Shown: positions 7,536-32,676 of the stretch, one piece after another | Layout of the letters: the number at the start of each line of letters is the position of its first letter | How positions within the stretch are numbered: position 1 is the stretch's first letter | From: an uncultured Hyphomicrobiales bacterium | GTDB taxonomy: Bacteria > Pseudomonadota > Alphaproteobacteria > Rhizobiales > Devosiaceae | DNA length: 36,684 nucleotides | Assembly: GCA_903842455.1 (NCBI GenBank) | Contig: CAIMLX010000079.1 | Coordinates: 1-36,684, forward strand | Direction: 5' to 3' | Translations under genes and position numbers: made by a program | Notes under the pieces: generated by a model | Seen by the model: the letters and a program-made list of their open reading frames with translations, nothing else | Told to the model about the DNA's origin: nothing | Databases searched by the model: none

Positions 7536-7541
7536 CGTCGT

Positions 7542-7579: not shown

Positions 7580-7633
7580 CGACCAGGGAGCATTGGCGCA
7601 CATTGATCCGGGGAGGTTAAGGTTCCATTGAGG

Positions 7634-8811: not shown

Positions 8812-8815
8812 GGCC

Positions 8816-9241: not shown

Positions 9242-9267
9242 CCGACCCTCCATCATTCGATGCAGAG

Positions 9268-9296: not shown

Positions 9297-9300
9297 TTTT

Positions 9301-9340
9301 TTCATACACGCAGTCTTAAAAAACATTCTCGGTGTATGAA
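9301..9340. promoter_or_regulatory. Inverted repeat next to the XRE operon promoter, candidate operator
   Basis: TTCATACAC (9301-9309) and its exact reverse complement GTGTATGAA (9332-9340) are separated by 22 nt of AT-richer DNA. The proximal arm lies 4 bp upstream of the -35 hexamer. The spacing puts the two arm centres 31 bp apart, about three helical turns, so two regulator dimers on one DNA face is a reasonable idea. The binding protein may be the small XRE regulator of the same operon; that is inference. Confidence 0.45.
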
Positions 9341-9360
9341 TCATCCGACGCGGGGAAAGG

Positions 9361-9744: not shown

Positions 9745-9750
9745 AGGCGC

Positions 9751-9779
9751 ATATGGCGGAGGCGGCAGTGGCCCGTCAA
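9751..9779 (-). promoter_or_regulatory. Predicted rnpB promoter
   Basis: On the minus strand TTGACG (9774-9779) and CCATAT (9751-9756) are spaced by 17 nt. The predicted start, about 7 nt after the -10, lands at 9743-9745, exactly where the P1 helix of rnpB begins. The -35 contains the TGA stop codon of the upstream J-domain gene. Confidence 0.65.
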
Positions 9780-13416: not shown

Positions 13417-13430
13417 AGCTGCCTCACGAG

Positions 13431-13450
13431 ATATAAAGATATCTTTATAT
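13431..13450. promoter_or_regulatory. Perfect 20-bp palindrome, predicted operator of the ArsR-methyltransferase/metF operon
   Basis: ATATAAAGATATCTTTATAT is perfectly self-complementary and stands out from the surrounding high-GC DNA. It lies 14 bp upstream of the TTG start of the ArsR-type gene, where a repressor would block promoter escape. The symmetry and size fit a dimeric ArsR-family winged helix. That this regulator binds it is an inference from position. Confidence 0.7.
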
Positions 13451-13489
13451 GCGTCGCGAAGCGCGGTCTAGAGGCAAGGACGAAATGCC

Positions 13490-15613
13490 CTAACGATCCC
13501 GTGGCAGATGCGGCAACAGTTTGCCAAGGGTGATGGGGAAATCGCGAATGCGCACCCCGGTAGCGTTGTAGACCGCGTTGGCAACCGAGCCACCGGTTCC
13601 TCCTGCTCCGAGTTCACCAATGCCCTTGACGCCGAGGTGGTTGGCGCGCTCGTCGAAATCGTCGAGCATGATCGCATCGATCGCCGGAATGTCGGCATGG
13701 GTGGGGATGAGGTACTCGGCGAAATCGCCGTTCACCCAACTGCCGAAGCGAGGGTCGACGGCGGCTTCCTCGTGCAATGCGGCGCCGACGCCCCAGATCA
13801 TGCCGCCGATCAGCTGCGACCGCGCGGTCTTGCGGTTGAGGATGCGGCCGGCCGCAAACACACCGAGCATGCGGCGCAGCCGGACCTCGCCGGTGTCGAT
13901 ATCGACGCCAACTTCAGCGAACGAGGCGCCATAAGTGTACTGCGAAAACGTCTGGTAGTTGGGGTCTTCGGAGCCCGCCAGCTGGCGGCCGATGGCTTCG
14001 AGGCCGTCGGGGAAGTGGCGCCGGACTTCGGCGAAGATGTCGTTGTAGGTGGTTCCAGCGGCCGCACGAATACGCTCCAGCAGCGTGCTGCAAGCGCGAT
14101 CGACCGAGACTGTGGTGTTGGCAGCGCCCCAGGAGCCGCCGGCACCGTTTCCCTTTGGATGGTTGGAGTTGGCCAGTTCGACCCGCACCACGCTCATCGG
14201 CACGCCGAGCACTTCGGCGACCACCTGCGCGACGATGGTGTAGGTGCCCGTGCCGATATCGGTCATGTCCGAGCGCACCAGTACCCAGCCTTCGGGATCG
14301 ATGCGCACCAGCGCCTCGGCGGAGGTCTGGAAGTGGCCGCGCATCGACGAGGCGACACCGTAGCCGATCATCCAGCGCCCGTCGCGGCGGGTGGCGGTCC
14401 GCGGACGCTCGCTCCAGCCGAACTGCTCGGCGCCCTCGCGCAGGCAATCGACGAGGCGGCGGCCGCTGAGCGGCAGTTCCTTGTCGGGGTCGTAGTCGGT
14501 GTCGTTGCGGATACGCAGTTCGACCGGATCGACGCCGAGCTGCTCAGCCAGTTCGTCCACGGCCGATTCGAACACCATCAGCCCGGCCAGTTCGCCGGGA
14601 CCGCGCACCGGCTCGGCGGCTTTCATGTCGAGGGTCTGGTGCAGCTGGCGCGTCAGCAGGTTCGGCGTGGCGTAGAGAGCGCGGCCGACGGAAGAGACCG
14701 CCTCGTCCCATGCTTCGCTCGGCGATATCTGGATCGCCGCATCGTGGCCGACGGCTGTGAGCTGCCCCTCGGGCGTAGCTGCCAGCCGCACCCGACTGAT
14801 CGAGGCCGGCCGGTGTCCGACGAGCGTGAAGATCTGCCGGCGGGTGAAGGCGACCTTGACCGGCTGGTTGAGATGCATGGTCGCGAGCGACGCAAGCACC
14901 GCCTCGGCGTGCAGCACGATCTTGGAGCCGAAGCCGCCGCCGACATAGGCGCTGTCGATGGTGATCTGGTTGCGGTCCAGCTTAACCGTTGCAGCGAGGC
15001 CGGAGATCAACTGGTTGAGCATCTGCGCCGTGAGGAACAGCGTCAGGTGCCCGTCGCGCCAGTCGGCGAGGCAGGCGTTCGGCTCCATCGGCTGGCCGAA
15101 ATGGTAGGGTGTCGAGTACAGCTGATCGACGCTGTTGACCGCCTCAGCCATGATTGCATCGACGTCGCCGATGCGGGTCTCGCTCTTCCATTGCGCCGTC
15201 TTGGCCGGGGTGGCGAGCACGTAGCGTCCGGGCTCGGCCTCATACTCGACCTCGACCAGCCCGGCCGCGTGGCGGGCGATCTCGAAACTGTCGGCAATGA
15301 CGAAGGCGACCGGCATGCCGTAGTAGTCGATGCGGTCCGACACGAACTCGGGCCTGGCCCGGTCCATCATGTCGCCCTCCGGGCCCTCCGGCGACCCCTG
15401 GTCGGGCGCGTTGTGGTAGGTCCAGACGAGATGGACGCCGGTTACCCGTTCGGCGGCCGAGGCATCGATGCGGGCGATGCGGCCGTAGCCGATGCCGGCC
15501 CCGACGATGTGGCCGTAGAGCGCCTGCCCCGGCTCCTGTCGCTCAAGGGAGTAGTGGGCGCGGCCGGTGACCTTGACCGGGCCGTCGGTGCGGCTGATGC
15601 CTTCGCCGATCAT
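13490..15613 (-). CDS. Aldehyde oxidoreductase, molybdopterin-binding large subunit (PaoC/YagR-like)
   Basis: This 707-residue protein is the catalytic subunit of a xanthine-oxidase-family hydroxylase. The N-terminal [22 protein letters not shown] block, the YVGGGFGSK and [10 protein letters not shown] Moco-cofactor stretches, and [15 protein letters not shown] are visible. The C-terminal [19 protein letters not shown] holds the Glu that acts as catalytic base. Length and gene order match E. coli PaoABC (YagTSR), a detoxifier of aromatic aldehydes in the periplasm; the true substrate here is unknown. It overlaps the FAD-subunit gene by 4 bp. Such enzymes need MCD cofactor and a PaoD/XdhC-type chaperone, which are not in this window. 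Confidence 0.92.
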
Positions 15614-16560
15614 TGGACCGTCTCCAGCGCAGCCGCCAGCATGCGGCTGACCAGGGGCAGCTTGTAGGCCGTTTCGGTACAGGACTTTGCGCCGGCCAGC
15701 ACGATATCGGCGATGGCGTCGGGATCGCGGGGGCCACGCTCGGCCGCCTCGACGCGCCAGGGCTTGAGCGCCAGGCCGCCGAAGGCGAGACGCTCGACGA
15801 CGACTTCGCCGTGCTCGACCGTGGCGACCAGCGCCATGCTGACATTGGCGAAGGCATAGGAGGCGCGGTCGCGGACCTTGCGGTAAATCTGGGTGCCGGC
15901 GAGAGGCGACGGCAGGACGATGCCCGTGATCAGTTCGCCCGGTTGCAGCGCGGTTTCGAGGTGGGGGGTGTCACCGGGCAGCAGGTGGAAATCGGCGATA
16001 GCGATCGACCGCTTCGCACCCGCGCTTTCGATCTCGACGACGGCATCGAGGGCGCGGAGCGCCACGCACATGTCGGAGGGATGGGTGGCGATGCAGGCAT
16101 CGCTGGCACCCAGCACCGCGAAATTGTGGCCGACGCCGCCGATGGCCGAGCAGCCTGAACCCGGCCGGCGCTTATTGCAGGCCATGTCGGTGTTGTAGAA
16201 ATACGGGCAGCGGGTGCGCTGCATCAGGTTGCCGGAAACGCTGGCCTTGTTTCGCAACTGGCCGGAGGCTCCCGAGACGAGAGCACGGGTCAGCACCGGA
16301 TAGTGCTGGCGAACGCGAGGGTGCGCTGCGAGGTCGGCATTGCGGACCAGCGCGCCGATGCGGAGGCCGCCTTCCGGCGTATCCTCGATCCGGTCGAGCC
16401 CGATGCGGTTGATGTCGACGATGTGCGCCGGTCCCTCGATGCCCAGTTTCATCAGATCGAGCAGGTTTGTGCCGCCCGCGATGATCCGCGCGCCGGGCCG
16501 CGCCGCTGCTTCGATGGCTTCGGCGGGCGTTGCCGGCCGCTCGTAGCTGAAGGGCTTCAT
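15610..16560 (-). CDS. Aldehyde oxidoreductase, FAD-binding medium subunit (PaoB/YagS-like)
   Basis: The 316-residue medium subunit passes electrons between the iron-sulfur subunit and the acceptor through FAD. The N-terminal FAD motif [13 protein letters not shown] (residues 26-38) is typical. Residues 118-156 contain Cys118, Cys128, Cys137 and Cys156 ([20 protein letters not shown], then DAC). This is the insertion that in PaoB-type subunits binds an extra 4Fe-4S cluster, which xanthine dehydrogenases lack. The C-terminal CO-dehydrogenase-flavoprotein domain follows. It overlaps both neighbours by 4 bp, so the three subunits are translationally coupled. Confidence 0.92.

Positions 16561-19060: not shown

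Positions 19061-19061
<1 letters not shown>
18738..19061 (-). CDS. 2Fe-2S ferredoxin, adrenodoxin-like (ferredoxin 1)
   Basis: A 107-residue one-electron carrier. Cys38, Cys44 and Cys47 in CGGACSCATCH and Cys84 in SRLSCQI form the C-X5-C-X2-C...C set of vertebrate-adrenodoxin-like ferredoxins; Cys42 is an additional Cys inside the loop. The C-terminal acidic stretch fits a partner-docking face. Its start shares one base with the stop codon of the reductase gene upstream (TGATG), so the pair is coupled. It is very probably the partner of that reductase and, through it, a donor to the sulfite reductase encoded nearby. Confidence 0.93.
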
Positions 19062-20086
<1,025 letters not shown>

Positions 20087-20212
20087 TCACTTCTCGTTTG
20101 GCTGGAGGCCGATCCACGGCCCTCCGGTCTCATGATGTGCGCAGCCTGTCACGCTAGGCGCGGCGAATGGCCGGCTCCCGCACATCCGCGGAAGCGGCCG
20201 GAAGTTGTATAG

Positions 20213-21502
20213 TCAGGCGTTCTCTACGGCTCGGCGCAGGAACGGCCGAGTGCCGACCGGAATCTCCGTCAGCCCCACAGGCTGATAGAAGATATCGACC
20301 GTGGCCAATTTGCCATCGATCAAGGCCTTCTTCGTCGGCTCATGCTTGACCACGAAGGCCGTGATGCCGCAGCGGCGCATCAGCTGGATCTGGTCGTGCA
20401 GCACGTCGCCGACGGCTCGGACCTCGCCCTTGTAGCCGAGCCGCTCGACCAGCAGCCGGGCCGACGAATAGCCGCGACCGTCGGTGTAGGCCGGGAAGTT
20501 GATGGCGATCGAGCTGAAGCGATCGAGGTCGCCCTTGACCGCCATTACGTCGTCAGCAGGCGAGACCAGCAGGCCCACCGGATGCGGGTTGGCCAGCACG
20601 GCGTCGCGGTTCTCGACGAACACGGCCAATGGGATGTGCGTGTAGCTCACCGAGCCGGCGTCATCGCCTTCGGCCCAGGAATGGAACGGATCGGCGACGA
20701 ACGCGCCGTCCTTGAAGAGGTTCAGTTCCTGGTTGGCCATGGGCTTGGCAATGGCTCCGTTGAAATCGAAGTGGATGCCGCACTCTTTCTTGTTCAGCCC
20801 ACGCCAGCGGCCGGCGCGCGGGTCCTCGCCTTCGGCCACGATGCTCGTGCAGGGCGCGCAGCCGATAGACTTGTAGCCCTTGGCATAGAGCGGATGCTCC
20901 GGCAAGCCGTACTTCAGCTTGTAGCTGACGATGTCGGCGTCGGAAAAATAGGCGAGCGGATTGACCTTGATGCGGTCGTCGCTGGTCAGCTCGAAATGCG
21001 GGAGGACCCCCCGCTCGGCGGTCTGGTAGCGCTTGCGACCGGTGACCCACCCGCCAAAGCCCTTTACCGCCTCGTCGAGCGGTTCGGTCTTGCGGATGTG
21101 GCAGCAGGAATCCGGGTCAGTCTCCCATAGATCTCCGGTCGGATCGAAGCGGGCGATATCCTTCGCGTCCGGATGCAGGGCGACGACGTTGGTGAGGCCG
21201 AGTTGCCGCTTCAGCGTCTCGACATAGTCGAGGGTTTCCGGAAAGTGCTTGCCGGTTTCGAGGAAGTAGACCGGCAGGCTCTTGTCGACCTGCGCCACCA
21301 TGTGGAGCAGCACGGAGGAATCGGCGCCGAACGACGAGACGATGGCAAGGTCGCCGGGCAGCAGGTGCTCGGTCGCCTGGCGAAGAACGGCCACGCCGTC
21401 CATCTCATCGAACATGCCGTTGAGCGACATGATGCCCAGCTCGCGCAGGGCATCGCGCTTGTGCGGGCGAAGGCCGGCGACGGCGAGGTCAAGCGTTGCC
21501 AT
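20213..21502 (-). CDS. cysH: CysH (APS reductase) fused to a DUF934 domain
   Basis: Residues 1-250 are an APS/PAPS reductase: the PP-loop SSFGADSS at 56-63, CC at 133-134, CAPC at 215-218 and the catalytic Cys in ECGIH at 240-244. The CC and CXXC pairs bind a 4Fe-4S cluster and indicate use of APS rather than PAPS. Residues about 255-415 match DUF934, a family tied to sulfite reduction (INFPAYTDGRGYSSARLLVERLG, AVGDVLHDQI, MRRCGITAF). In relatives the two are usually separate neighbouring genes. I chose the ATG at 21502, with AAGGAGG 6 nt upstream; it overlaps cysI by 14 bp. The DUF934 part may act as a scaffold to sulfite reductase (inference). Confidence 0.93.
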   Translation of the reverse strand: MATLDLAVAGLRPHKRDALRELGIMSLNGMFDEMDGVAVLRQATEHLLPGDLAIVSSFGADSSVLLHMVAQVDKSLPVYFLETGKHFPETLDYVETLKRQLGLTNVVALHPDAKDIARFDPTGDLWETDPDSCCHIRKTEPLDEAVKGFGGWVTGRKRYQTAERGVLPHFELTSDDRIKVNPLAYFSDADIVSYKLKYGLPEHPLYAKGYKSIGCAPCTSIVAEGEDPRAGRWRGLNKKECGIHFDFNGAIAKPMANQELNLFKDGAFVADPFHSWAEGDDAGSVSYTHIPLAVFVENRDAVLANPHPVGLLVSPADDVMAVKGDLDRFSSIAINFPAYTDGRGYSSARLLVERLGYKGEVRAVGDVLHDQIQLMRRCGITAFVVKHEPTKKALIDGKLATVDIFYQPVGLTEIPVGTRPFLRRAVENA

Positions 21503-23147
21503 AGAGCGCCTCCTTGAACGGTTCCTTGCCGATGCGGCGGAACGCGTCGATGAAGGGCTCGGAGGGGCTTTGGCGGCGGGCGATGTAGGCGTCGACCAGG
21601 CGCTCGATGGCGGCGGGCACGTCCTCGGCGATGAAACCGTGGCCGAGGATGTCGCCGATTGCGGCCTGCTCGGTGGCATCGCCTCCGACGGTGATCTGGT
21701 AAAGTTCGGTGCCCTTCTTCTCGACGCCGAGGATGCCGATATGGGCGACGTGGTGGTGGCCGCAGGCATTGATGCAGCCCGAAATCTTGATCTTCAGATC
21801 GCCGATCTCGGCCTGCCGCTCGGGCGAGCCGAACTTGCGGCTGATCTCCTGGGCCAGCGGGATGGAGCGGGCATTTGCCAGCGCGCAGAAATCGAGGCCC
21901 GGGCAGCAGATCATATCGGTGATCTGGCCGGCGTTACCTTCGGCGAGGCCATGCTCGACTAGCCTGGCGTAGACCGCCGGGAGGTCGGTGATCTTGACGT
22001 GCGGCAGCACCAGGTTCTGCTCATGCGTGACGCGCAGCTCGTCGTGCGAGTAGCGCTCGGCGAGGTCAGCGACGACATCGATCTGGGCGTCGGTCGCGTC
22101 ACCGGGCGCGCCGCCGATCGGCTTCAGCGAGATGGTGACGGAAACGTAGCCCGGCTGGCGGTGGCCGTGCAGGTTGTGCTCCAGCCAGCGGCCATAGAGC
22201 GGGTTGAGGATCTTCTCGCGGGCCACATCGACCCTGGTCTCGTTGACCAACTCGTATGCGGGCTCGACGAAGTACTTGCCGATGCGGTCGAGCTCGTCCT
22301 GCGGCAGGTGCAGGACGCCGCCCTTCACCTGGGCGAACTCCTCGTCGACCTGCTGGCGGATCGAATCGATACCCTCCTCGTGGACGAGGATCTTGATGCG
22401 CGCCTTGTACTTGTTGTCGCGGCGCCCGTAGCGATTGTAGACGCGCAGGATGCTCTCGAGATAGGCGAGCAGGTGCTCGTGTGGGACGAAGCCCGAGATC
22501 ATCTTGCCGATCATCGGGGTGCGGCCAAGACCGCCGCCGACCCAGACCTGCCAGCCGATTTCGCCCAGCGCGCTGGTGGTGGCCTGCAGCCCGATATCGT
22601 GGAAGCGGATGGCGGCGCGGTCCGTTGGCGAGCCCGTCATCGCAATCTTGAACTTGCGCGGCAGATAGCTGAACTCGGGGTGCAGGCTCGACCACTGGCG
22701 CAAGATCTCGGCGACCGGACGCGGGTCGATGATCTCGTCAGCCGTGGCGCCGGCGAACTGGTCGGTGGTTATATTGCGGATGCAGTTGCCCGAGGTCTGT
22801 ATGGCGTGCATCTCGACCGAGGCCAGATCCTCGAGGATCTTCGGGATATCGCGCAGCTTCGGCCAGTTGAACTGGATGTTCTGCCGCGTGGTGAAGTGGC
22901 CATAGCCGCGATCATAGGTGCGGGCGATATGCGCCAGCATATGCATCTGCTTCGAATTCATCGTGCCGTAGGGCACGGCGATGCGCAGCATGTAGGCATG
23001 CAGCTGCAGGTAGAGGCCGTTCATCAGCCGCAACGGCCGGAACTGGTCCTCGTTGAGCTCGCCGGTGAGACGGCGCGCCACCTGGTCGGAAAACTGCGCC
23101 GTGCGTTCCTTCACGAACGCGGCGTCGAACTCGTCATATCGATACAT
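21489..23147 (-). CDS. cysI: Ferredoxin-type sulfite reductase hemoprotein (CysI/nitrite-sulfite reductase family)
   Basis: This 552-residue protein reduces sulfite to sulfide with six electrons through siroheme and a 4Fe-4S cluster. The cluster ligands are Cys415 and Cys421 (CPGLDFC) and Cys458 and Cys462 (CINAC), followed by GHHHVAHIGILG. The siroheme-binding TTRQNIQFNWPK (86-97) and TSGNCIRNITTD are present. No CysJ flavoprotein is encoded here; the FNR-ferredoxin pair downstream is the likely donor. Nitrite reductases share the fold, but the cysG/cysH context argues for sulfite. It overlaps DUF2849 by 14 bp and the cysH fusion by 14 bp. Confidence 0.95.
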   Translation of the reverse strand: MYRYDEFDAAFVKERTAQFSDQVARRLTGELNEDQFRPLRLMNGLYLQLHAYMLRIAVPYGTMNSKQMHMLAHIARTYDRGYGHFTTRQNIQFNWPKLRDIPKILEDLASVEMHAIQTSGNCIRNITTDQFAGATADEIIDPRPVAEILRQWSSLHPEFSYLPRKFKIAMTGSPTDRAAIRFHDIGLQATTSALGEIGWQVWVGGGLGRTPMIGKMISGFVPHEHLLAYLESILRVYNRYGRRDNKYKARIKILVHEEGIDSIRQQVDEEFAQVKGGVLHLPQDELDRIGKYFVEPAYELVNETRVDVAREKILNPLYGRWLEHNLHGHRQPGYVSVTISLKPIGGAPGDATDAQIDVVADLAERYSHDELRVTHEQNLVLPHVKITDLPAVYARLVEHGLAEGNAGQITDMICCPGLDFCALANARSIPLAQEISRKFGSPERQAEIGDLKIKISGCINACGHHHVAHIGILGVEKKGTELYQITVGGDATEQAAIGDILGHGFIAEDVPAAIERLVDAYIARRQSPSEPFIDAFRRIGKEPFKEALYGNA

Positions 23148-23445
23148 GGCCGTCCTCGTCGAGATGCTGGCGGTCGAAGCGGGGAGCCGTCGGCCCCTCG
23201 GCGCGGATGCGTTCGCGGATGCGATCGGGGTAGATGGCGCCGTCGCTGAGCGTCACGGTTTCGATCTCCAGCGAAACCACCCGGAGAGTCTTCTTGGTTG
23301 CGGCAATTGCCGCGTCCCGAGCCTCGACCTCGTCGTTGTTGAAGACGCGGGCGTGCTGCAGCTCCTCCACCCAGCGGCCTTCGCGATCGAGATATACCGT
23401 CGCGCCGCTCATCAGCTCGTTGCCGGTGAGGATTTCCATCGTCAT
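23134..23445 (-). CDS. DUF2849 domain protein of the sulfite-reduction operon
   Basis: A 103-residue protein of the DUF2849 family, known from alphaproteobacterial cys operons between cysG and cysI. Its function is unknown. Visible features are an N-terminal MSGATVYLDREGRWVEELQHARVF block, two predicted helices, and a C-terminal region with TLSDGAIYPDRIRERIRAEGPTA. No Cys residue and no membrane segment are present, so it does not bind a cluster by itself. It overlaps cysG by 4 bp (ATGA) and cysI by 14 bp, so it is translated in coupling with both. A role in maturation or regulation of CysI is only inferred from position. Confidence 0.9.
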   Translation of the reverse strand: MTMEILTGNELMSGATVYLDREGRWVEELQHARVFNNDEVEARDAAIAATKKTLRVVSLEIETVTLSDGAIYPDRIRERIRAEGPTAPRFDRQHLDEDGHVSI

Positions 23446-24833
23446 GCCACCTTGAATTCGTTGCGGGCGAGCCGGATGGCGTCGCTCCAGTCGCCGTGCG
23501 CGATCGCCTCGCCCACGAAAATGATTGCCGGACCGTCTTCGAGCTCCACCTGCCCCGAGGCCAGGTCGCCCAGCGAACCCCGGTAAAGGACGCGATCCTT
23601 GCGCCCTGCCTTGACCACCAGACCAACCGGGATGGTGGCAGCGGCGCCTTCGGCAATCAGCCTTGCCGACGTTTCGGCGGCAATCGACTTGCCCATGTAG
23701 AGCGCCAGCGTCAGCCCAGCCGAAGCCAGCGAAGCCCAGTGCTGCAGTTCCTCGGAATTGGCTCCATGGGCGGTGGCGAGAACGAAGCCCGTCGAGATCT
23801 TGCGCAGGGTAACCGGAGTTGCCGTGTCGGCGGCCGCCGCGAGCGCTGCCGTTACGCCGGGAACAATATGGAAGGCGACTCCGTGCTTGTTGAGTGCCTC
23901 GATTTCCTCGCCGGCGCGTCCGAACACCATCGGGTCACCGCTCTTGAGGCGCGCCACGCGCTTGCCGGCCTTGCCAAGGCGAACGATCAGCGCGTTGATT
24001 TCGGCCTGGGTGAAGGAGTGATGCCCCTTCTGCTTGCCCACCGAGATGCGTTCGGCGTCGCGCCTGCCCATTTCGACGACGGCAGCGGGGACCAGCGCGT
24101 CGTGGACGATCACGTCCGCCTCCTGCAGCAGCCGCTGGGCGCGCAGGGTGAGCAGGTCTTCCGACCCCGGGCCAGCGCCGATCAGCCAGACGACGCCCGC
24201 AGTCTCGCCGAGAGCAGCGTGCCGGGCCAGCACTGCTTCGGCCGCGGCAGTGCCCTGCCCGCGCAGCACCTCAACCTCGACTTCAGGCGAGGTCACCAGT
24301 TCCTCGTAGTAGCGGCGGGCGCGCGGCCCTGGCAGCAATGCGCCAACCTTGTCGCGCATCGACCCCGCCAGCCGGGCGAGTGCGCCGAGATTGGGCGAGA
24401 TCACCTGCTCGATACGCGCCCGGATCAGCCGCGCCAGCACCGGCGCATCGCCCTCCGAGGACACGGCTATCGTGATGGGCGCCCGGTCGATGATCGAAGG
24501 GGTGTAGAAATCGCACTCGTGGGGTACGTCGACGACGTTGAGCGGCAGACCACGCGCCCGGGCCGCGGCCTTGGCGGCGTCGCCATCCGGTCCGTGGTCG
24601 GCAACAAAGACCAGTGCCGCGTTGTCGAGATCGGACGCCTCGAACGGCCGCGCCAGCACCGTGACCGGGAACCCGGAGAAGTCCACTTCGATGTGTCCGG
24701 ACACTATGACGACCGTTGCAGTCGTCTTAACCGCCAACCGGACCTTGTTGAGGGCCTCGTCCCCACCGCCAACAATGACGATGCGCTTCCCCTCGACTTT
24801 GTAGCTGACAGGAAATGTTGTCAGTTCACCCAT
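23442..24833 (-). CDS. cysG: Siroheme synthase CysG (trifunctional)
   Basis: CysG makes siroheme from uroporphyrinogen III. The N-terminal half is the NAD-dependent precorrin-2 dehydrogenase/ferrochelatase (IVIVGGGDEALNK, then NVVDVP with the conserved Asp, and the SIIDRAPITIAVSSEGDAPV block). From about residue 214 comes the SAM-dependent uroporphyrinogen methyltransferase (WLIGAGPGSEDLLTL, RLKSGDPMVFGRAGEE). The ATG at 24833 (463 residues) is chosen: AAAGG lies upstream at proper distance and the sequence aligns from there. A form from 24875 would add 14 residues. It is the first gene of the cys operon and supplies the cofactor of CysI. Confidence 0.96.
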   Translation of the reverse strand: MGELTTFPVSYKVEGKRIVIVGGGDEALNKVRLAVKTTATVVIVSGHIEVDFSGFPVTVLARPFEASDLDNAALVFVADHGPDGDAAKAAARARGLPLNVVDVPHECDFYTPSIIDRAPITIAVSSEGDAPVLARLIRARIEQVISPNLGALARLAGSMRDKVGALLPGPRARRYYEELVTSPEVEVEVLRGQGTAAAEAVLARHAALGETAGVVWLIGAGPGSEDLLTLRAQRLLQEADVIVHDALVPAAVVEMGRRDAERISVGKQKGHHSFTQAEINALIVRLGKAGKRVARLKSGDPMVFGRAGEEIEALNKHGVAFHIVPGVTAALAAAADTATPVTLRKISTGFVLATAHGANSEELQHWASLASAGLTLALYMGKSIAAETSARLIAEGAAATIPVGLVVKAGRKDRVLYRGSLGDLASGQVELEDGPAIIFVGEAIAHGDWSDAIRLARNEFKVA

Positions 24834-24856
24834 TGGCGGCCTTTCGGATGGCGCGA

Positions 24857-24885
24857 TATGTACCCACATCCGCACAGTGGAACAA
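24857..24885 (-). promoter_or_regulatory. Candidate promoter of the cysG operon
   Basis: On the minus strand TTGTTC (24880-24885) and TACATA (24857-24862) are separated by 17 nt, leaving a leader of about 18 nt before the cysG ATG. The hexamers are weak, as expected for an activator-dependent promoter. Confidence 0.4.
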
Positions 24886-25554: not shown

Positions 25555-25875
25555 TCAGGCCTGGCGGCTCGGCACGTGCACGACGAGGCCGTCTATGGTG
25601 TCCTTCACCTTGATCTGGCAGCTCAAGCGCGAGTTCGGCTTTGGCTGCCAGGCGAAGTCCAGCATGTCTTCTTCCATCATCGAAGGACCGCCGACCACTT
25701 CGGTCCAGGCGTCGTCCACATAGACGTGGCAGGTCGCGCAAGTGCACGATCCACCACACTCTGCGATGATGCCGGGAATGCCGTTCATGACCGCTGTTTC
25801 CATGACGGTCGAGCCGAGTTCGGCCTCGGCTTCGTGCCGCGTGCCATTGGATTCGATGTAGGTGATGCGGGGCAT
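25555..25875 (-). CDS. 2Fe-2S ferredoxin, adrenodoxin-like (ferredoxin 2)
   Basis: A 106-residue 2Fe-2S ferredoxin with ligands Cys40, Cys46, Cys49 (CGGSCTCATCH) and Cys86 (SRLSCQI), plus an extra Cys44. It is a paralogue of the ferredoxin at 18738-19061, sharing the same motif and overall plan but with clearly different flanking sequence. In alphaproteobacteria such ferredoxins serve iron-sulfur assembly, P450s or FNR; no partner gene is next to it. The ATG at 25875 is the only start that gives a ferredoxin N-terminus; a frame running up to 26328 is an artefact overlapping the Hpt gene. Its stop is 1 bp from that of the convergent secreted-protein gene. Confidence 0.92.
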   Translation of the reverse strand: MPRITYIESNGTRHEAEAELGSTVMETAVMNGIPGIIAECGGSCTCATCHVYVDDAWTEVVGGPSMMEEDMLDFAWQPKPNSRLSCQIKVKDTIDGLVVHVPSRQA

Positions 25876-25939
25876 GTCGGGTCTTTGCGTGAGGGATGGC
25901 CGGATATAGCGGCGGCATCCTCTCCCGGCAAGCGGGCCC

Positions 25940-26347
25940 TTAGGCGGTAAGCCCGTCCTGCTCGCTGGCCATGACGTAGGCATCGATGAAGCTGACGCAT
26001 TCGGCCACCGCCATGGCGATATCCTCGACGCGCTCGGGATTGGGCAGCTGGCCGGAGCGCAGTTCGTCCTCCGCCTGCTTTGCCAGATCGCGCACGGCCC
26101 AGGCGCCGATGCCGGCAGCGGCGCTCTTGAGCGTATGGAGGTGTTCGAGCAGCATGGTGACCGAGGTGCTGTCCTCGAGGCGGCCCAGATAGACCTGCGA
26201 CATGCGGGCGTAGAGGCGAAGGACCTCGTCCTGCAGGCCGGGATCGCCCATGGCCTGGCGACCGAGATGTTCCATGTCGATAGGACCGTGCGCGCGATGA
26301 TTGCGCGGGGCGTCCTGCCCCGCGTCAAGCGCAGTACTCTTTGACAT
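25940..26347 (-). CDS. Stand-alone Hpt (histidine phosphotransfer) domain protein
   Basis: This 135-residue protein is a single Hpt domain with a short polar N-terminal tail. The motif HTLKSAAAGIGA starts at His71, which would accept the phosphate, and the four-helix pattern around it is complete. Such proteins relay phosphate between hybrid kinases and response regulators in the cytoplasm. No kinase or receiver is in the window. It is divergent from the GPR/RgsE-like gene and shares the 344-bp upstream region that carries a CtrA-type box. AGGG lies 9 nt before the ATG. Confidence 0.87.
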   Translation of the reverse strand: MSKSTALDAGQDAPRNHRAHGPIDMEHLGRQAMGDPGLQDEVLRLYARMSQVYLGRLEDSTSVTMLLEHLHTLKSAAAGIGAWAVRDLAKQAEDELRSGQLPNPERVEDIAMAVAECVSFIDAYVMASEQDGLTA

Positions 26348-26691: not shown

Positions 26692-29600
26692 ATGGCCAAG
26701 AAGTCTTCCTCCCCCCAGAACGATCCCGCAACGCTGGCTTTCTCTGCGGTGGAGGACGCACTCAAGGACTCGGTCTTCGCCGGCCTCGACCAGCCGGCCG
26801 CCGCTGACGAACCCGCTGAACGCCCGGCCCCGTCCCTTGGTCCCAAGCCCGTGCAGCGCGACAACTCGCCGCGTACGGAGCGCCAGCGCACCGCCGACAA
26901 GTTCGCGGCGCAGACCGGCTCGGTGGCCAATGACGACCGGTTCCAATCGACCAAGATTCTCTACGGCCTGCAGCAGAAGCCCGCCGGCAACACCACCATG
27001 GTCGCCGCACTCGTCTCGCTGGGGTGGGTCGTGGCGATTGCGCTTGTCGGTGTGGTCCGCAACGGCTCCGACCTCGGCACGGCCGCGTTCTGGGGTTCGA
27101 ACGATTTCATCGGCCTGCTGGCGCTCGCCGTCGTGCCGGTCATCGGCATCTTCGCTGTCGCCACGCTGATCCGCCGGGCGCAGGACCTGCGCAATGCCGC
27201 GGCCGCCGTCACGCAGGCGGCGATCCGTCTTGCCGAACCCGAGACCACCGCGTCCGAGAAGGTCGCGTCCGTCGGCCAGGCCGTGCGCCGCGAGGTGAAC
27301 GCGCTCGGCGATGGCCTTGAGCGCGCCCTGTCGCGCGCCGGCGAACTCGAGGTGATGATCCATAACGAGGTCACCGCGCTCGAACGCACCTATTCCGACA
27401 ACGAATCGCGCATGCGCGCCCTGATCCAGGAACTCGCCAGCCAGCGCGAGGCCGTGATCACCAACACAGAACGTGTTCGTGAAGCGATCACCGAGAGCCA
27501 CACCGGCCTGGTGTTCGACCTCGACATGATCAGCCAGCGCATCGCGGGCACCATCGTCGAGTCGGGTGGCAATCTGACCAAGGCGCTCGAGACCGCCGGC
27601 AACTCGCTGAATGGCGCGTTCGGCGAGCGCACCGAGAGCTTCGTCTCGCTGATCGACCAGCGCACCAGCCACCTGCTCGTCGCCCTCGACGACTCCGCCT
27701 CGCGTCTCAACATCACGCTCGAAGATCGTGCCGGCACCATCTCCGGCGCCTTCGAGAATCGCACCGAGCAGCTCAGCGCAGTGATCGACCAGCGCCTCGA
27801 ATCGCTGACCGAAGCCCTCGACAGCCGCACCGTCACCCTGTCGGACGCCATCGACAACCGCACCTCGTCGCTCGCCAAGCTGCTGAGCCAGGGCGGCATC
27901 ACGCTACTCGACCAGTTGCGCGACCGCGGCCATGAAGTGTCGAGCGCCCTCGACATGATCGGCACCCGCATCGCGTCTGACATCACCGGCCGGGCCCGCG
28001 AAGCCGAGTCGCTGCTCTCGGGCCTCAGCCACCAGCTCGACGAGCAGGTGCAGATCCAGGTCAACTCGATGGAATCGCGCCTGCAGTCGGCGATGATCGA
28101 ACTGTCCGGGGCCCTCGACGACACCACCGAACGCGCCCGCGTCACCCTGACCGGTGCCGGTTCGCAGAACCTCGCGCAGTTCGACGCCCGCCTCGACGAG
28201 ATCGCCTCGGCCATCGATACCCGCCTTGCCGGCCTCGACGGCGTGATCGGCGACAAGGGCGACAAGCTGGTTTCGGCGCTTGACAAGCACAATGCGAGCT
28301 TCGCCGCCCGCGCCAACGTGCTGGAGATCGCCCTCGACGAAAAGAGCGAGCACTTCAACGAGATCGTGTCGCAGCGCACCCGCGAAATGACCGAGACGCT
28401 TGGCCAGCGCACCAAGCAGATCACCGAGACCATCGCTAACCGTAGCCGCGAAATCTCGGACTCGCTCGAAGGCCACACGCAGGTCATCGCCGACGCGCTC
28501 GACGGGCGGACCAGCCTGCTCAACGAGACGCTGCAGAACCGCAATGTCGACTTCTCCGAGACCCTGCTCGGCCGGGCCCGCGAGATCGACGATGCGCTCT
28601 CTGGCCGCACCCGCGAACTCGAACTGGCGCTGACCACCCGCACCAACGAGCTCGAGCAGGCCATCACCACCCGTACGGCCAGCCTCGGCCAGACCGTCAG
28701 CGCCAATGCCAACGAACTGGCGCAGATCATCGTCGCCCGCACCGGAGAGCTCAACCATACGCTCTCCAGCCGCGCCGCCGAAGTGGAAGCCGCTCTGATC
28801 TCGCGCACCTCGGCACTCGACGACGCGCTCACGCTGCGCACGGCGGAACTCGAAGGCACGCTCGGCACGCGGACTGCCGAACTCGATGGCGCGCTGACCA
28901 GCCGCGCCGCCGAACTGAACGGCACGCTGATCGCACGCACCGCCGAACTCGATAACGCGCTCAATTCCCGGACCGCACAGCTCGACGGCGCTATTTCCCG
29001 CCGGGCCGGCGAACTCGACCATACGCTCGGCCAGCACGTGACCGCCTTCGATCGCACGATCGCCGGTCACGCCCAGGCGCTGGATACGACTATCCTGACG
29101 CATGTGCAGGCGATCGACACTAGCCTCGCCAACCGCGCCGACCAGATCACCGGCGTGTTCTCCGGTCGGGCCGACCAGATCGACGGGATCCTGCAGCAGC
29201 GCACTGCGACGCTGAACGACGGCTTCGACGCCCGCGTCCAGAGCCTTGATGCCAACCTTCTGGCCCAGACCCGCACCCTGAACGAAGGCTTCGATGCCCG
29301 TGCGCAGCGGCTTGCCGCCGGTATCGACGCGCAGACCCGCGCGCTGAATGAAGGCCTCGATACCCGCGCCGACTTGCTCCACGGCGGGCTGGACAGCCGG
29401 ACCGAGGCGTTCAACGAAGGCATCGACAGCCGTGTCGAAACGCTGAACCAGAACCTCGACCTGCGGGCGACTGCGCTCAGCGACAACCTCGACATCCGCG
29501 TCCAGGCGATCAACGCCAACTTCGACATGCGCGCCCAGGCGCTCGCCGAGAGCCTCGACCAGCGCACCCAGACGCTCGCCGGTACCGTCTCGGCCCGCTC

Positions 29601-32600
29601 GGCGGAACTCGCCGAAGCGCTCAACAACCGCACGCAGCAGCTCGCCGAAACCTTGGGCAGCCACACCGTCGGCATCGCCGCGGCTATCGGCGACCGCACC
29701 AGTGAACTCGCTCGCACCATCGACGCTCAGGGCACGGCGGCGCGCGACAAGATCGACACATCGCTGCGCAACGTCGCCGACTCGATGGGCGAACGCGCCG
29801 CACAGGTTGCGACCCTGATCGAGACCAAGGTCTCCGAGGTCAGCGAACAGCTTGGCCGCGGCGTGGATACGGCCATCCTGCGGATCGCCGATGCCGAAAC
29901 CGGCGTAACGGACCGTATCGACCAGGCGTCCTCGACTGTCGGGGAAAGCGCTCGTGCCGCAGCCGACATCATCGAGACCGGCGTCAACTCGGCCCGCAAA
30001 GCCATCACCGACATGGTCGACCAGCGGCTGGGCACCCTGCCCGAGGCGATCACCGCCCGTGCGGACATCACTGCCGAACGGCTGGCGTCGCTGAACACCG
30101 CGATCAACACCGCGCTGGTGCAGTCGATGACCGACCTCGAGTCGGGCGCCGACCGCATCGAGGAGACGATTTCCCGCCGGATCGTCGCCGCTACGCAGGG
30201 CATTGCCGACGACGTGACGACGACCGCCGACCGCATGGACGTTGCCGTCCGCAACGCGCTCGAACAGATCAGCGTCGCCTCGCGCAATATCGACGACCTG
30301 ATCTCGATCAAGGCCGTGGCTGCTGCCGACGCGATCGGCGGCAAGGTCGCCGAGATCAATCGGGTGGTGACGGAACGTACCGACGAGTTCTCGGACCTTG
30401 TCTCGGATCGCTCGTCGCAGTTGCAGATGGCCCTCGACAACCATGGCAACGTGCTCCAGCAGGCGCTGATCAACAACGCGGCGGCCGCCGAAGACCTGAT
30501 GAGCCAGTCGACCTCGCGCATCCTCCCGGATGTTACGGCGGCGCTGGGCAAGCTCAACGACTCCAACATTCTACTGCAGAAGGTGCTCGACGCCTCGACG
30601 GCCAACCTCGCCAACCTCGAAAATTCGGTGGCCCAGCAGACCTCCACCTACTCTTCCACGGTGCGTGAAGCGATTTCCTCGACCGAGGAAGCCGGCCGCA
30701 TGGTCACCACTCACGTGGGCGCCCTGCAGAACACAATCCAGTCGATGGTCACCGAGTTCGGCGCTATCCTGGGCAACCTCGGTGCGGAAGCGTCGTCGAT
30801 CGACAAGGCTGCCGAGAACCTGAACTCGACCAGCAACTTCACCCTTGTCATGCTCGATGAGCGGCGCTCGGCGATGGACGAACTGGCCGGCAGCTTCGCC
30901 TCGCGTGCCGACGAGATCGATATGCGGATGCGCGGCTTTGCCCAGTCGATCGCCGACACCGTCAACGAGACCGAGGAGCGCCTCGGCGTTGCCCGCATGT
31001 CGATGGAGCAGCTGCTCGCCTCGACCACATCGAATGTCGCCGAGACCCTGGAGCAGACTTCAGGTTCGATCACCAGCGCCCTGAGCGATACGACCACTCA
31101 GCTGCAGAACGTGCTGACCTCGACCACCGACCAGGTCCAGTCTGCCCTCGCGGCGTCGACCGACCAGCTCGAAGGTGTGCTGAACACAACCAGCGAAAAA
31201 GTGCAGTTCTCGCTGTCCGCGACGACTGGCCAGCTCGAAGGCGTGCTGAACTCGACCACCGAGAAGGTGCAGATTGCCCTCGCGGCGACCACCAACCAGC
31301 TCGAGGATGTTCTGAACTCGACCACCAGCCGCGTCCAGGATGCCCTTGGCACCACGACCGAGCAGGTGCAGAGCGTGCTCAACCAGACCGCCGAGCAGGT
31401 CCAGTCAGCGCTGGTCTCCACCACGGGTCAGGTGCGCTCCGTGCTCAGCTCGACCACCGAGCAGATGCATGGTGCCCTCACCGCCTCCACGGGCGAGATG
31501 GAAGCCGCAATCACCGCGACGCAGGAACGCCTGCAGACGGCGCTGGGCAAGACCACCGAACAGATGGAAACCGTCCTCGGCAAGAGCACCAACCTGCTTG
31601 AGGAAGCGCTCGAATCGACCTCGCAGCGTGTGTCGACCCAGCTTGGCTCGTTCACCAGCACCGCCGGCAACGAGAGCCAGCGAGCGGCTGACGCCCTGCG
31701 CCAAACGCAGGCCACGATGATCCTCGAGATGCAGCAGGCCCTCGAAGCCGCAACGCAGCGCTTCAACGAGACTGCCGCAGCGATGCGCGAGACGGCCAAG
31801 GAAGTCGGTACCGAGCTCGAGGCTACCCGCTCCGAACTGGCGCGCGGCGTCATCGAACTGCCCGAAGAGACCAAGTCGAGCGCCGCGGCGATGCGCCGCG
31901 TCGTCGCCGAGCAGATCGAGGCCCTGGCTGAACTCAACGCCATCGTCCGGGCCCAGCCGCAGACACATGACCTCAGCGAACGTCGCCCGGCAGCGCCGAC
32001 CCGACAGTCGATCGCTCGCGACGAGGCGCCCGTCTCGCGACCTGAGCCGGTTCGCCAGGCTGAACCCCGTCCAGAGCCGGTCCGTCCGGCACCGGTGGCA
32101 CAGGCCGCTGCACCCGCGCCGCAGCCGGCTGCCCAGCCGCGCTACGTGCCGATGCCCGAGGTGCCCGTGGCGACCGCGCCGCGTCCGGCCGCACCGGCTG
32201 CCGCCCGCCCTGCCGAACAGAAGCCCGAAGGCGGCGGCTGGCTCCGGGACGTGCTCCGCAACGCCTCCGGCCCGGCAGCAGCGGCTCCCGCTCCCGCCCC
32301 GGCTGCCCCCGCTCCGGCTCCGGCGCCAGTTGCTCAGCCGCAGAATCTCTCGACCCTGACTGAGGAAATCGCCCGGTCGATGGACCAGGCAGCCCTCGCC
32401 GAAGCGTGGCAGCGCTACCAGTCGGGTGAGCAGAACGTGTTCTCGCGTCGCATCTACTCGCTCACCGGGCAGGCGACTTACGACGAAGTCCGCAAGCGCA
32501 TCCAGCGCGACCCGGATTTCGCCAAGACCGCGACGACCTACATGAGCGAGTTCGAGCAGCTGCTGAAGCGCGCGGCGACGGGTGCAAGCCCGGTCGAGGA

Positions 32601-32676
32601 AACCCGCGAGTATCTGCTCAGCGACCGTGGCCGGGTCTACACGATGCTGGCCCACGCCAGTGGCCGCCTCGGCTGA
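26692..32676 (+). CDS. GPR/RgsE-like giant polar-growth protein with hendecad repeats
   Basis: At 1994 residues this protein has the plan of GPR (growth pole ring) of Agrobacterium and RgsE of Sinorhizobium, inner-membrane proteins of about 2,000 residues that form a ring at the growing pole. A polar Pro-rich N-terminal part (1-95) precedes two membrane segments (about 102-122 and 139-160). The rest is an apolipoprotein-like chain of 11-residue repeats: residues 313-400, 562-1012 (41 units in phase) and 1444-1652. A Pro/Ala-rich linker (about 1764-1883) leads to a folded-looking C-terminal domain (1884-1994). Both termini may face the cytoplasm. The gene is monocistronic, with a CtrA-type box upstream and a strong terminator behind. 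The family call rests on architecture, not on a database match. Confidence 0.85.
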   Translation: MAKKSSSPQNDPATLAFSAVEDALKDSVFAGLDQPAAADEPAERPAPSLGPKPVQRDNSPRTERQRTADKFAAQTGSVANDDRFQSTKILYGLQQKPAGNTTMVAALVSLGWVVAIALVGVVRNGSDLGTAAFWGSNDFIGLLALAVVPVIGIFAVATLIRRAQDLRNAAAAVTQAAIRLAEPETTASEKVASVGQAVRREVNALGDGLERALSRAGELEVMIHNEVTALERTYSDNESRMRALIQELASQREAVITNTERVREAITESHTGLVFDLDMISQRIAGTIVESGGNLTKALETAGNSLNGAFGERTESFVSLIDQRTSHLLVALDDSASRLNITLEDRAGTISGAFENRTEQLSAVIDQRLESLTEALDSRTVTLSDAIDNRTSSLAKLLSQGGITLLDQLRDRGHEVSSALDMIGTRIASDITGRAREAESLLSGLSHQLDEQVQIQVNSMESRLQSAMIELSGALDDTTERARVTLTGAGSQNLAQFDARLDEIASAIDTRLAGLDGVIGDKGDKLVSALDKHNASFAARANVLEIALDEKSEHFNEIVSQRTREMTETLGQRTKQITETIANRSREISDSLEGHTQVIADALDGRTSLLNETLQNRNVDFSETLLGRAREIDDALSGRTRELELALTTRTNELEQAITTRTASLGQTVSANANELAQIIVARTGELNHTLSSRAAEVEAALISRTSALDDALTLRTAELEGTLGTRTAELDGALTSRAAELNGTLIARTAELDNALNSRTAQLDGAISRRAGELDHTLGQHVTAFDRTIAGHAQALDTTILTHVQAIDTSLANRADQITGVFSGRADQIDGILQQRTATLNDGFDARVQSLDANLLAQTRTLNEGFDARAQRLAAGIDAQTRALNEGLDTRADLLHGGLDSRTEAFNEGIDSRVETLNQNLDLRATALSDNLDIRVQAINANFDMRAQALAESLDQRTQTLAGTVSARSAELAEALNNRTQQLAETLGSHTVGIAAAIGDRTSELARTIDAQGTAARDKIDTSLRNVADSMGERAAQVATLIETKVSEVSEQLGRGVDTAILRIADAETGVTDRIDQASSTVGESARAAADIIETGVNSARKAITDMVDQRLGTLPEAITARADITAERLASLNTAINTALVQSMTDLESGADRIEETISRRIVAATQGIADDVTTTADRMDVAVRNALEQISVASRNIDDLISIKAVAAADAIGGKVAEINRVVTERTDEFSDLVSDRSSQLQMALDNHGNVLQQALINNAAAAEDLMSQSTSRILPDVTAALGKLNDSNILLQKVLDASTANLANLENSVAQQTSTYSSTVREAISSTEEAGRMVTTHVGALQNTIQSMVTEFGAILGNLGAEASSIDKAAENLNSTSNFTLVMLDERRSAMDELAGSFASRADEIDMRMRGFAQSIADTVNETEERLGVARMSMEQLLASTTSNVAETLEQTSGSITSALSDTTTQLQNVLTSTTDQVQSALAASTDQLEGVLNTTSEKVQFSLSATTGQLEGVLNSTTEKVQIALAATTNQLEDVLNSTTSRVQDALGTTTEQVQSVLNQTAEQVQSALVSTTGQVRSVLSSTTEQMHGALTASTGEMEAAITATQERLQTALGKTTEQMETVLGKSTNLLEEALESTSQRVSTQLGSFTSTAGNESQRAADALRQTQATMILEMQQALEAATQRFNETAAAMRETAKEVGTELEATRSELARGVIELPEETKSSAAAMRRVVAEQIEALAELNAIVRAQPQTHDLSERRPAAPTRQSIARDEAPVSRPEPVRQAEPRPEPVRPAPVAQAAAPAPQPAAQPRYVPMPEVPVATAPRPAAPAAARPAEQKPEGGGWLRDVLRNASGPAAAAPAPAPAAPAPAPAPVAQPQNLSTLTEEIARSMDQAALAEAWQRYQSGEQNVFSRRIYSLTGQATYDEVRKRIQRDPDFAKTATTYMSEFEQLLKRAATGASPVEETREYLLSDRGRVYTMLAHASGRLG
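27628..27891 (+). repeat. Coding hendecad repeat array 1
   Basis: Eight in-phase 33-bp units code for residues 313-400 (for example RTEQLSAVIDQ, RLESLTEALDS, RTVTLSDAIDN). The units are degenerate at DNA level. Confidence 0.75.
28375..29727 (+). repeat. Coding hendecad repeat array 2, 41 units
   Basis: Residues 562-1012 split exactly into 41 consecutive 11-residue units without a single insertion or deletion. The loose consensus is R-T/A-x-x-L-x-x-x-L-x-x, for example RTAELEGTLGT, RTAELDGALTS, RTAELDNALNS. Two further in-phase units (RANVLEIALDE, KSEHFNEIVSQ) precede it. The DNA units differ enough that slippage is not obvious. Confidence 0.88.
31021..31647 (+). repeat. Coding hendecad repeat array 3, 19 units
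   Basis: Residues 1444-1652 divide into 19 consecutive 11-residue units of a different flavour, rich in Thr/Ser/Gln and lacking the leading Arg: STTDQVQSALA, ASTDQLEGVLN, TTSEKVQFSLS, STTEKVQIALA. Some adjacent units are close at DNA level, suggesting more recent duplication than in array 2. Confidence 0.85.

Follow-up and report, generated by a model that had tools for sequence, protein, structure and literature searches.

The window analysed here, 36,684 nucleotides of contig CAIMLX010000079.1 from an uncultured Hyphomicrobiales bacterium, carries an open reading frame (26692..32676, + strand) encoding a protein of 1994 aa which, judged by its conserved blocks and its gene neighbours, is a Devosia-type orthologue of the growth-pole protein RgsE/GPR, as the first-pass annotation had proposed. 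The block profiles match S. meliloti RgsE with 147.6 (A1), 39.8 (A2), 75.9 (A3) and 130.7 bits (A4), with the order kept. Divergently oriented upstream genes, one with an Hpt domain (25940..26347, - strand) and one with a 2Fe-2S domain in its own residues 159-242 (25555..26328, - strand; its real start probably lies further in than the start of the open reading frame), are found in both the window and S. meliloti. The S. meliloti copy retrieved here has 2089 aa, the published RgsE length (PMC7327166), and shares with the window protein the TM-like N-terminus, the sequence of A1, A2, A3 and C-terminal blocks, and an 11/3-periodic stripe of hydrophobic residues; the two differ in unit number. 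Size (1994 aa) and two TM-like N-terminal stretches, the latter seen by hydropathy only, likewise agree with RgsE/GPR, the sequence compared being the S. meliloti copy. GPR/RgsE organises unipolar growth in Rhizobiales; polar localisation has been published for S. meliloti (PMC7327166) and B. abortus, a 200-nm ring has been reported for GPR in A. tumefaciens (PMC8262873), and RgsE has been described as repeat-containing with coiled-coil regions (PMC7327166).

All parts of the protein are given with + strand positions. Residues 1-95 (26692..26976) are read as disordered from their composition (9 Pro) and precede the two TM-like stretches (residues ~98-168; 26983..27195). The A1 block (residues 172-300; 27205..27591) is conserved across family and order: identity over its core (190-260) ranges from 0.72 to 1.00 in our 75-sequence set, reaching at least 0.92 in 52, and 60 of the 61 order genomes, the bacterium's own among them, have a match to the block. 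The 11/3 stripe, found by periodicity analysis, extends over residues ~236-1300 (27397..30591) with slowly drifting phase and includes array 1 (562-1012; 28375..29727). It is followed by the gap-poor A2 region (~1300-1443; 30589..31020), the dominant period being 3.57 at ~1260-1440, by array 2 (1444-1652; 31021..31647) and by the A3 block (1653-1765; 31648..31986). A Pro-rich linker (1766-1884; 31987..32343; 31 Pro in 119 residues), which has indels of varied size and served as internal control, leads to a conserved C-terminal domain (1885-1994; 32344..32673). Pfam reports no domain in the latter, and searches of NCBIfam and PDB sequences gave no convincing match, the best PDB hit being a glutamate dehydrogenase (E 0.0023). 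ZorA homology suggested by NCBIfam (20.4 bits versus a cut-off of 190) was dropped as a long-helix match, and a literature search on ZorA added nothing useful. Between the TM-like segments and the linker lie ~1,590 nearly proline-free residues, mostly with the 11/3 stripe and therefore predicted to form an amphipathic helix; this giant growth-pole protein is thus predicted to carry a very long helix of 11-residue units.

Array 1 consists of 41 consecutive 11-mers; positions 5 and 9 are I/L/V/M/F in every unit, and 33 units begin with Arg. Its relative entropy amounts to 15.6 bits per unit (4.0 ± 0.3 in 200 shuffles), its lag-11 BLOSUM self-similarity has a z of 23.8 (60 shuffles), and its basic residues are 43 Arg and a single Lys. 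Helices rise by 0.15 nm per residue, so that its 451 residues would span ~68 nm as a single helix, a length that the first-pass annotation had estimated correctly. The 41 units are in phase as described there, but the run is only part of the longer stripe, and the reported freedom from indels holds for the window sequence only: L074, at 94% identity the nearest near-full-length homologue fetched, has one unit fewer inside the run and four fewer in array 2. The claim of a second array with a different surface was borne out. Array 2 comprises 19 units with large hydrophobic residues at two positions in all 19, and a 22-residue super-repeat (z = 12.6 at lag 11, 18.6 at lag 22); it consists of 52% S/T/Q/N/G and has 4 Lys and 4 Arg, compared with 1 Lys and 43 Arg in array 1.

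The annotation had further inferred strict length conservation, and from it a ruler or ring strut, and had suggested comparing unit counts among homologues. We did so with 82 distinct full-length ORFs, obtained after exclusion of ORFs touching a contig end, ORFs below 1200 aa and copies sharing the last 1100 residues; seven were removed (four read as paralogues, three without all anchors), leaving 75 sequences including the window, 36 from named records, mostly Devosia, and 39 from family and genus genomes. The best anchor score was at least 1.95 times the second best. Unit numbers turned out to vary widely, with indels, the very outcome that the annotation had named as refuting its view: across the 74 near homologues, the length difference from the window ranges from -451 to +249 residues (~-41 to +23 units) for the array-1 interval and from -198 to +627 residues (-18 to +57 units) for the array-2 interval. 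On a quick tree of the anchor blocks (75 rows), array 1 underwent at least 60 length changes with 8 changes of register class, array 2 underwent 34 with the class constant, and the Pro-rich linker underwent 60 length and 53 class changes. Compared with the window, A2 and A3 lie exactly 18 units closer together in 17 of the 75 sequences of the family set and in 22 of the 28 order members for which this distance was measured; of the remaining six order members, two have a still shorter interval, one an intermediate one and three a longer one than the window has. We also considered that array 2 might compensate array 1 in length, which we rejected: rho was -0.07 in 31 disjoint near pairs (6 with agreeing and 6 with opposing signs, the rest unchanged in at least one array), and the raw correlation over 75 rows was positive (0.43).

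What is strict is the register, and it is this that the first-pass annotation appears to have sensed. The A2-A3 distance departs from that of the window by whole multiples of 11 in all 74 homologues, 72 of which differ in length; A1-A2 differences are 0, 7 and 4 mod 11 in 44, 27 and 3 of the 74, and A1-A3 distances measured with A2 skipped give the same register classes. Steps of 4 or 7 mod 11 correspond to the smallest non-zero turn of an 11/3 stripe, 33 degrees. Differences in the Pro-rich linker, by comparison, are 0 mod 11 in only 7 of 74. Gap by gap, in 45 near pairs plus window/L074, the gap length is divisible by 11 for 130 of 144 gaps in the arrays and for 5 of 190 in the linker, counts that are not independent since near pairs share tree branches. 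Gaps of other sizes per 1000 residues amounted, in the 45 pairs, to 35.1 in the linker and 10.2 in the N-terminal segment, compared with 0.36 and 0.00 in array 1 and 0.50 in the array-2 zone; these controls are imperfect in that linker and N-terminal segment are probably disordered, and the conserved A3 and C-terminal blocks are gap-free as well (0 gaps in the 45 pairs). The last 30% of the A1-A2 interval has no non-11 gap in 14,251 aligned residues, and one gap of any kind. At the level of sequence, these comparisons demonstrate that array units are gained and lost often, singly or several together, with the register kept, that nearly every step departing from a multiple of 11 belongs to class 4 or 7, and that the arrays are almost free of the out-of-phase indels that abound in the linker and the N-terminal segment.

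Beyond the family the picture is looser. From 57 loci fetched across the order, 41 arrays served for phase coherence, and 28 and 47 for anchor distances. All 75 family sequences showed phase coherence at p < 0.01, as did 35 of the 41 order members, the other six falling short; in S. meliloti RgsE the phase drifts beyond residue ~1125 (coherence 0.49, p = 0.004). Same-family pairs from other families were compared on either side of 45% identity: above it, the difference is divisible by 11 in six of seven (0 in one of these), and below it class 0 occurs in none of five. Over all 12 pairs, A1-A3 differences are 0 mod 11 in six and otherwise 7, 5, 3, 6, 8 and 4, five of these six non-zero pairs falling below 45% identity. 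Across families, only 4 of 47 share the register of the window over A1-A3 (zero class). This, like the pairs below 45% identity, the six order members short of p < 0.01 and the drift in RgsE, weighs against the rod reading given below. A continuous 11/3 stripe combined with register-preserving indels is what a hendecad coiled coil would be expected to leave in sequence.

We favor, with a probability of roughly 60%, the reading that the protein is a membrane-anchored, expandable rod in which continuity of the stripe rather than length is selected, and which would act as a scaffold by associating along its hydrophobic stripe with other copies. The stripe is flanked by basic residues on one side and Asp/Asn on the other, an asymmetry that probably favors parallel side-by-side packing with whole-unit stagger permitted; it is weaker across the order, and array 2, with few basic residues, lacks the basic flank. 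The gap-poor parts (A1, the last part of array 1 with A2, A3 and the C-terminal domain) may carry the specific contacts at the pole. A bolder version, to which we give somewhat less than even odds, would extend this to RgsE/GPR at large as a register-locked, length-free rod with parallel, stagger-tolerant zippering, where ring size would follow from assembly instead of molecule length and the premise of lipid binding would fall.

The strongest competing explanation is a giant amphipathic helix that lies on the membrane in the manner of perilipin 4 and the apolipoproteins. Its stripe would sit within the inner leaflet at the pole, flank charges would lock neighbouring helices together, and phase would be kept so that the stripe stays on the membrane. 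The 11/3 period, the scarcity of proline, the TM-like segments adjoining the array and the one-sided basic flank of array 1 are in line with it. In Plin4, positive residues are always found on one side, close to where the apolar and polar faces meet (PMC8064757), and droplet targeting improves with construct length (PMC5889406). A SWISS-MODEL likeness of GPR to apolipoprotein A-IV has been published (PMC8262873), phmmer matches array 1 to A-IV chains (E 7e-8, a value without shuffle control), and the window protein scores 218.2 bits against PF01442 (Apolipoprotein; gathering cut-off 90). Array 1 alone scores 110.5 bits, but it still scores 112.7 when reversed and 141.7 and 109.7 in the two of four column shuffles submitted, with no match for the one of three full shuffles submitted; S. 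meliloti RgsE scores 257.8 bits forward and 191.5 reversed, lower yet over the cut-off. Since the match survives column shuffling and reversal, it is no evidence of homology; these controls reveal no apolipoprotein-specific signal in array 1, and the label largely reflects the 11-residue rhythm. The HeliQuest-type discriminant D has a threshold of 0.68 for lipid-binding helices, of which both arrays fall short: mean D is -0.01 in array 1 (2.8% of windows over the threshold) and -0.10 in array 2 (0%). Net charge is about -1 per 18 residues and positive in none of 41 order arrays. We regard the membrane-lying helix as unlikely, albeit the most serious contender.

A second alternative holds that 33-bp DNA repeats simply recombine in register, the register itself being under no selection. 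Tandem DNA repeats of 33, 66 and 132 bp at 69-77% match are present, and 33-bp stretches that recur at lags of 33j with an identity of 97% or more, the footprints of in-register duplication, occur in array 1 of 3 and array 2 of 0 of the 75 sequences. Indels between such units stay in register by mechanism, which weighs against a selective interpretation. Mutation of this kind would account for the elevens but not for the absence of small indels (0 non-11 in those 14,251 residues versus 10.2 per 1000 in the N-terminal segment), nor for steps of 4/7, which are no multiple of 33 bp and yet the least disturbing on an 11/3 helix; as sole explanation we consider it improbable. A fixed-length ruler or strut setting ring diameter, for which a long continuous stripe in a ring-forming protein (200 nm; PMC8262873) might speak, is rejected at the level of sequence by unit counts that differ even at 94% identity, A1-A3 spans of 816-1773 residues within one family set and the missing length compensation.

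For the expandable-rod reading, published A. tumefaciens mutants provide a mixed record. Short coiled-coil deletions (stated as 20 or 21 residues, or 22 by one set of coordinates) disturb cell shape when expressed beside wild type, and expressed alone still form paired foci, one complementing significantly (PMC8262873). The most severe beside wild type is 413-434 (PMC8262873), whose coordinates would give 22 residues, which is in phase; if truly 22 residues, it counts against the register-locked rod. The A-IV-4 and A-IV-1 regions of the same study span 263 and 346 residues by coordinates, neither a multiple of 11.

Known long helices resemble the window protein in part. Perilipin 4 shares 11-residue repeats, great length and one-sided positive charges (PMC8064757), but it coats lipid droplets, is rich in Thr, Gly and Val and has only weak hydrophobicity (PMC5889406), whereas in the window protein, compared by features only, residues of the L/I type occupy two positions of each unit, one flank is Arg-rich, the net charge is negative and two TM-like segments are present. 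Synaptonemal-complex SYP coiled coils also have long helices with a feature conserved rather than sequence; they keep their length and are poor in indels (PMC8598163), in contrast to free length and conserved phase here. TipN of Caulobacter (882 aa) has been termed analogous to GPR (PMC13170164). A hendecad account goes beyond the apolipoprotein-like description, as the annotation had held: the sections and passages of the GPR/RgsE papers covered here contain no 11-residue or hendecad description, no title or abstract opening among the papers listed presents GPR as hendecad, the words "hendecad" and "repeat" are absent from the main text of PMC8262873, and a literature search pairing hendecads with Rhizobiales found nothing.

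Published GPR work builds on the apolipoprotein likeness, and the profile match behind this likeness is largely a by-product of the 11-residue rhythm. If our reading is correct, hendecads would be added and dropped like beads while one stripe stays in phase over ~1,000 residues, and in relatives over as many as ~1,800. As measured here, evolution holds to phase and not to length, and this may offer a general way of reading giant repeat helices.

The open reading frame at positions 26692–32676 (ORF call, + strand, 1994 residues) is an RgsE/GPR orthologue, as the first-pass annotation had proposed from its sequence. Its A1, A2, A3, and C-terminal blocks (residues 172–300, ~1300–1443, 1653–1765, and 1885–1994) recur in the same order in a 2089-aa S. 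meliloti relative (CP090106.1, 2044121–2050390), annotated ‘kinesin’ in its record and equal in length to published RgsE (PMC7327166), and divergent Hpt and 2Fe-2S genes lie upstream in both. CP090106.1 is labelled plasmid pSymB, but with fol genes, cytochrome c1, and a length of 3.7 Mb it is possibly a chromosome under a wrong label. With the A1 block as query, 60 of the 61 order genomes searched (own genome included) yielded relatives, in open frames of 713–2940 aa, some ending at contig ends. Of 115 genomes in a class sample, 6 matched, comprising the own genome, a second genome from this order, and four others at E 1e-10 to 5e-7. The A1 core directly after the TM-like segments (residues 190–260; window 27259–27471) is the most conserved among the anchors tried, with at least 0.92 identity in 52 of the 75-sequence set. 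According to PMC8262873, GPR forms a 200-nm ring made of six foci in A. tumefaciens, where it is essential for polar growth; partners reported for RgsE are RgsA, RgsS, and TolQ (PMC7327166). Another locus of the own genome, L008 on contig C92, encodes two GPR-like proteins of ~1967 aa (4118–10021, - strand) and ~1132 aa (12540–15938, - strand), both with TM-like N-termini and 11/3 periodicity; the genes are close together and adjoin a trpB-like and a trpA gene, and 3/18 other genomes of the genus show C-terminal matches to a second GPR-like protein. Within the window, positions 19061–24875 (- strand; sirohaem synthase, sulphite/nitrite reductase, PAPS reductase/DUF934, pyridine-nucleotide oxidoreductase) read as an ordinary assimilatory sulphur cluster.

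The 41 in-phase 11-residue units described for residues 562–1012 (array 1) were confirmed: the 11-mers run back to back, positions 5 and 9 are I, L, V, M, or F in 41/41 units, Arg occupies position 1 in 33/41, column information amounts to 15.6 bits per unit versus 4.0 ± 0.3 in 200 shuffles, and self-similarity at lag 11 lies 23.8 standard deviations over 60 shuffles. The second array of 19 units at residues 1444–1652 (array 2) likewise stood: all 19 units place large hydrophobics at two positions, the S/T/Q/N/G content is 52%, and basic residues are scarce; the array's lag-22 signal exceeds that at lag 11, indicating a doubled unit that is also visible in the DNA as periods of 66 and 132 bp. 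The limits of array 1 had been drawn too narrowly, as a hydrophobic stripe of period 11/3, its phase drifting slowly, spans residues ~236 to ~1300, followed by a 3.57-residue period and then array 2. Segment sums give five prolines in total within residues 172–1765.

Strict length conservation, also part of the earlier claim, did not survive comparison with homologues. A complete set of anchors was present in 75 of 82 distinct full-length ORFs, the window's own among the 75. Measured against it, the other 74 differ by -451 to +249 residues in the A1–A2 interval (49 distinct values) and by -198 to +627 in A2–A3 (20 distinct values), and the A1–A3 span ranges from 816 to 1773 residues, or ~122–266 nm if helical throughout. 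L074, the nearest near-full-length homologue fetched (94% identical to the window protein), has one unit fewer in the 41-unit run and four fewer in array 2. At array 2, an otherwise fixed site seems to have expanded, because A2–A3 is exactly 198 residues (18 units) below the window in 17/75 family sequences and in 22/28 order members measured; two of the remaining six are even shorter, one is intermediate, and three exceed the window.

The A2–A3 differences are multiples of 11 in 74/74 homologues (non-zero in 72), and those of A1–A2 leave 0 (44), 7 (27), or 4 (3) modulo 11, no other class occurring among the 74. On geometric grounds, displacing an 11/3 stripe by 4 or 7 residues rotates it through 33 degrees, the least non-zero turn possible. 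The Pro-rich linker (residues 1766–1884), used as internal control, follows no register rule (class 0 in 7/74). Anchor placement was unique (for A2 the top score was 1.95 times the runner-up or more, with higher ratios for the other anchors), and the A1–A3 interval, which bypasses A2, gave an identical class result. On a quick tree built from the anchor blocks, with branch supports not used, array 1 shows at least 60 length changes and 8 class changes, array 2 shows 34 length changes at constant class, and the linker 60 length changes with 53 class changes. Across 45 nearest-neighbour pairs plus window versus L074, 130/144 array gaps were divisible by 11, compared with 5/190 in the linker; the 14 exceptions are 11k+7, or aligner-split neighbours totalling a multiple of 11 or 11+4.

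Stretches of 33 bp with 97% identity or more, spaced at lags of 33j, occur in array 1 of 3/75 sequences and in array 2 of 0/75. DNA footprints of in-register duplication thus exist and give 11-residue steps a ready mutational source, which leaves the scarcity of small indels unaccounted for. Per 1000 aligned residues, non-11 gaps number 35.1 in the linker and 10.2 in the N-terminal segment (residues 1–95), versus 0.36 in the first 70% of A1–A2, 0.50 in the array-2 zone, and 0.00 in the last 30% of A1–A2 (14,251 residues), where a single gap of any size was found, 1 of 104 in that interval; the A3 and C-terminal blocks contain none. As small non-11 indels are nearly absent from the arrays relative to the linker and N-terminus, imperfect controls as these are, we read the pattern as purifying selection on phase. 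The gap-avoiding last 30% of A1–A2, A3, and the C-terminal domain are likely sites of specific contacts.

Elsewhere in the order, 12 same-family pairs were aligned. In six of the seven above 45% identity, the A1–A3 difference is divisible by 11 (0 in one pair, as much as 33 units in another), and in the seventh it is 8 mod 11; 30/38 array gaps and 1/41 linker gaps of these seven pairs are class 0. None of the five pairs below 45% identity showed a class 0 A1–A3 difference. Between families, the total register measured against the window scatters (14/47 in class 8, 4/47 in class 0), as accumulating 4/7 steps may produce; array gaps between S. meliloti RgsE and Shinella (61%) are of classes 0, 4, and 7, with one -3 adjoining a -4. 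Against a null of randomly shifted units (p < 0.01, floor 1/301), stripe phase is coherent in 75/75 family sequences and 35/41 order members, with values of 0.97 across 1,618 residues and 0.98 across 1,787 in two. Six of the 41 miss p < 0.01, one lacking any coherence, and the stripe of S. meliloti RgsE is coherent up to ~residue 1125 and drifts beyond.

With the Apolipoprotein profile PF01442, array 1 reaches 110.5 bits, its reversed form 112.7, and two column-shuffled versions, in which order is lost and periodic composition retained, 141.7 and 109.7; one fully shuffled version gave no match. Reversing S. meliloti RgsE lowers its score from 257.8 to 191.5, a loss of a quarter that still leaves it far above the cut-off of 90. 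An 846-aa antisense ORF (ORF call, 27904–30444, - strand) shadows the repeat, and an antisense frame of the array (29320–29583, - strand) matches PF01442 at E 3e-6, under cut-off, which is another sign that the profile reads rhythm. Since column-shuffled, reversed, and antisense sequences match, as do sequences in 7/14 control genomes (0 above cut-off), the match mainly reflects the 11-residue amphipathic rhythm. This weakens the homology argument to apolipoproteins; that GPR fails to bind lipid is not thereby proven. The shuffle and reversal controls concern the PF01442 match; two further likenesses to apolipoprotein A-IV stand outside them, a phmmer match between array 1 and apoA-IV chains (E 7e-8) and a SWISS-MODEL resemblance published in PMC8262873. 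The lipid-binding discriminant averages close to 0, and net-positive arrays number 0/41 across the order.

In array 1, one flank of the stripe (-33 to -65 degrees) carries basic residues and the opposite flank Asp/Asn, a bias shared by the family set and seen less strongly in the order at large; in array 2, basic residues are too scarce for it to show. This one-sided charge recalls Plin4, in which a role in locking adjacent helices together was proposed for it (PMC8064757). Side by side, parallel helices would pair unlike flanks and antiparallel helices like flanks. Parallel copies held at one end by their TM-like segments could zip along the stripe, any whole-unit stagger being allowed, so that unit number would be unimportant and phase essential, in line with our observations. 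In PMC8262873, A. tumefaciens GPR lacking a short coiled-coil stretch is described as forming paired foci when present alone, the same type of deletion is disruptive in cells where wild type is present too, and non-functional mixed multimers are discussed. That behaviour would be compatible with zipping between identical molecules but not onto a shifted partner, though not decisively so: the deletion lengths appear inconsistently as 20, 21, or 22 residues and one short deletion mutant complements well (PMC8262873), and 22 residues would be in phase. The same paper puts a helix of 1,700 residues at 600 nm (PMC8262873); at 0.15 nm per residue it would measure ~255 nm, a difference that touches the argument for GPR folding back within 50-nm foci.
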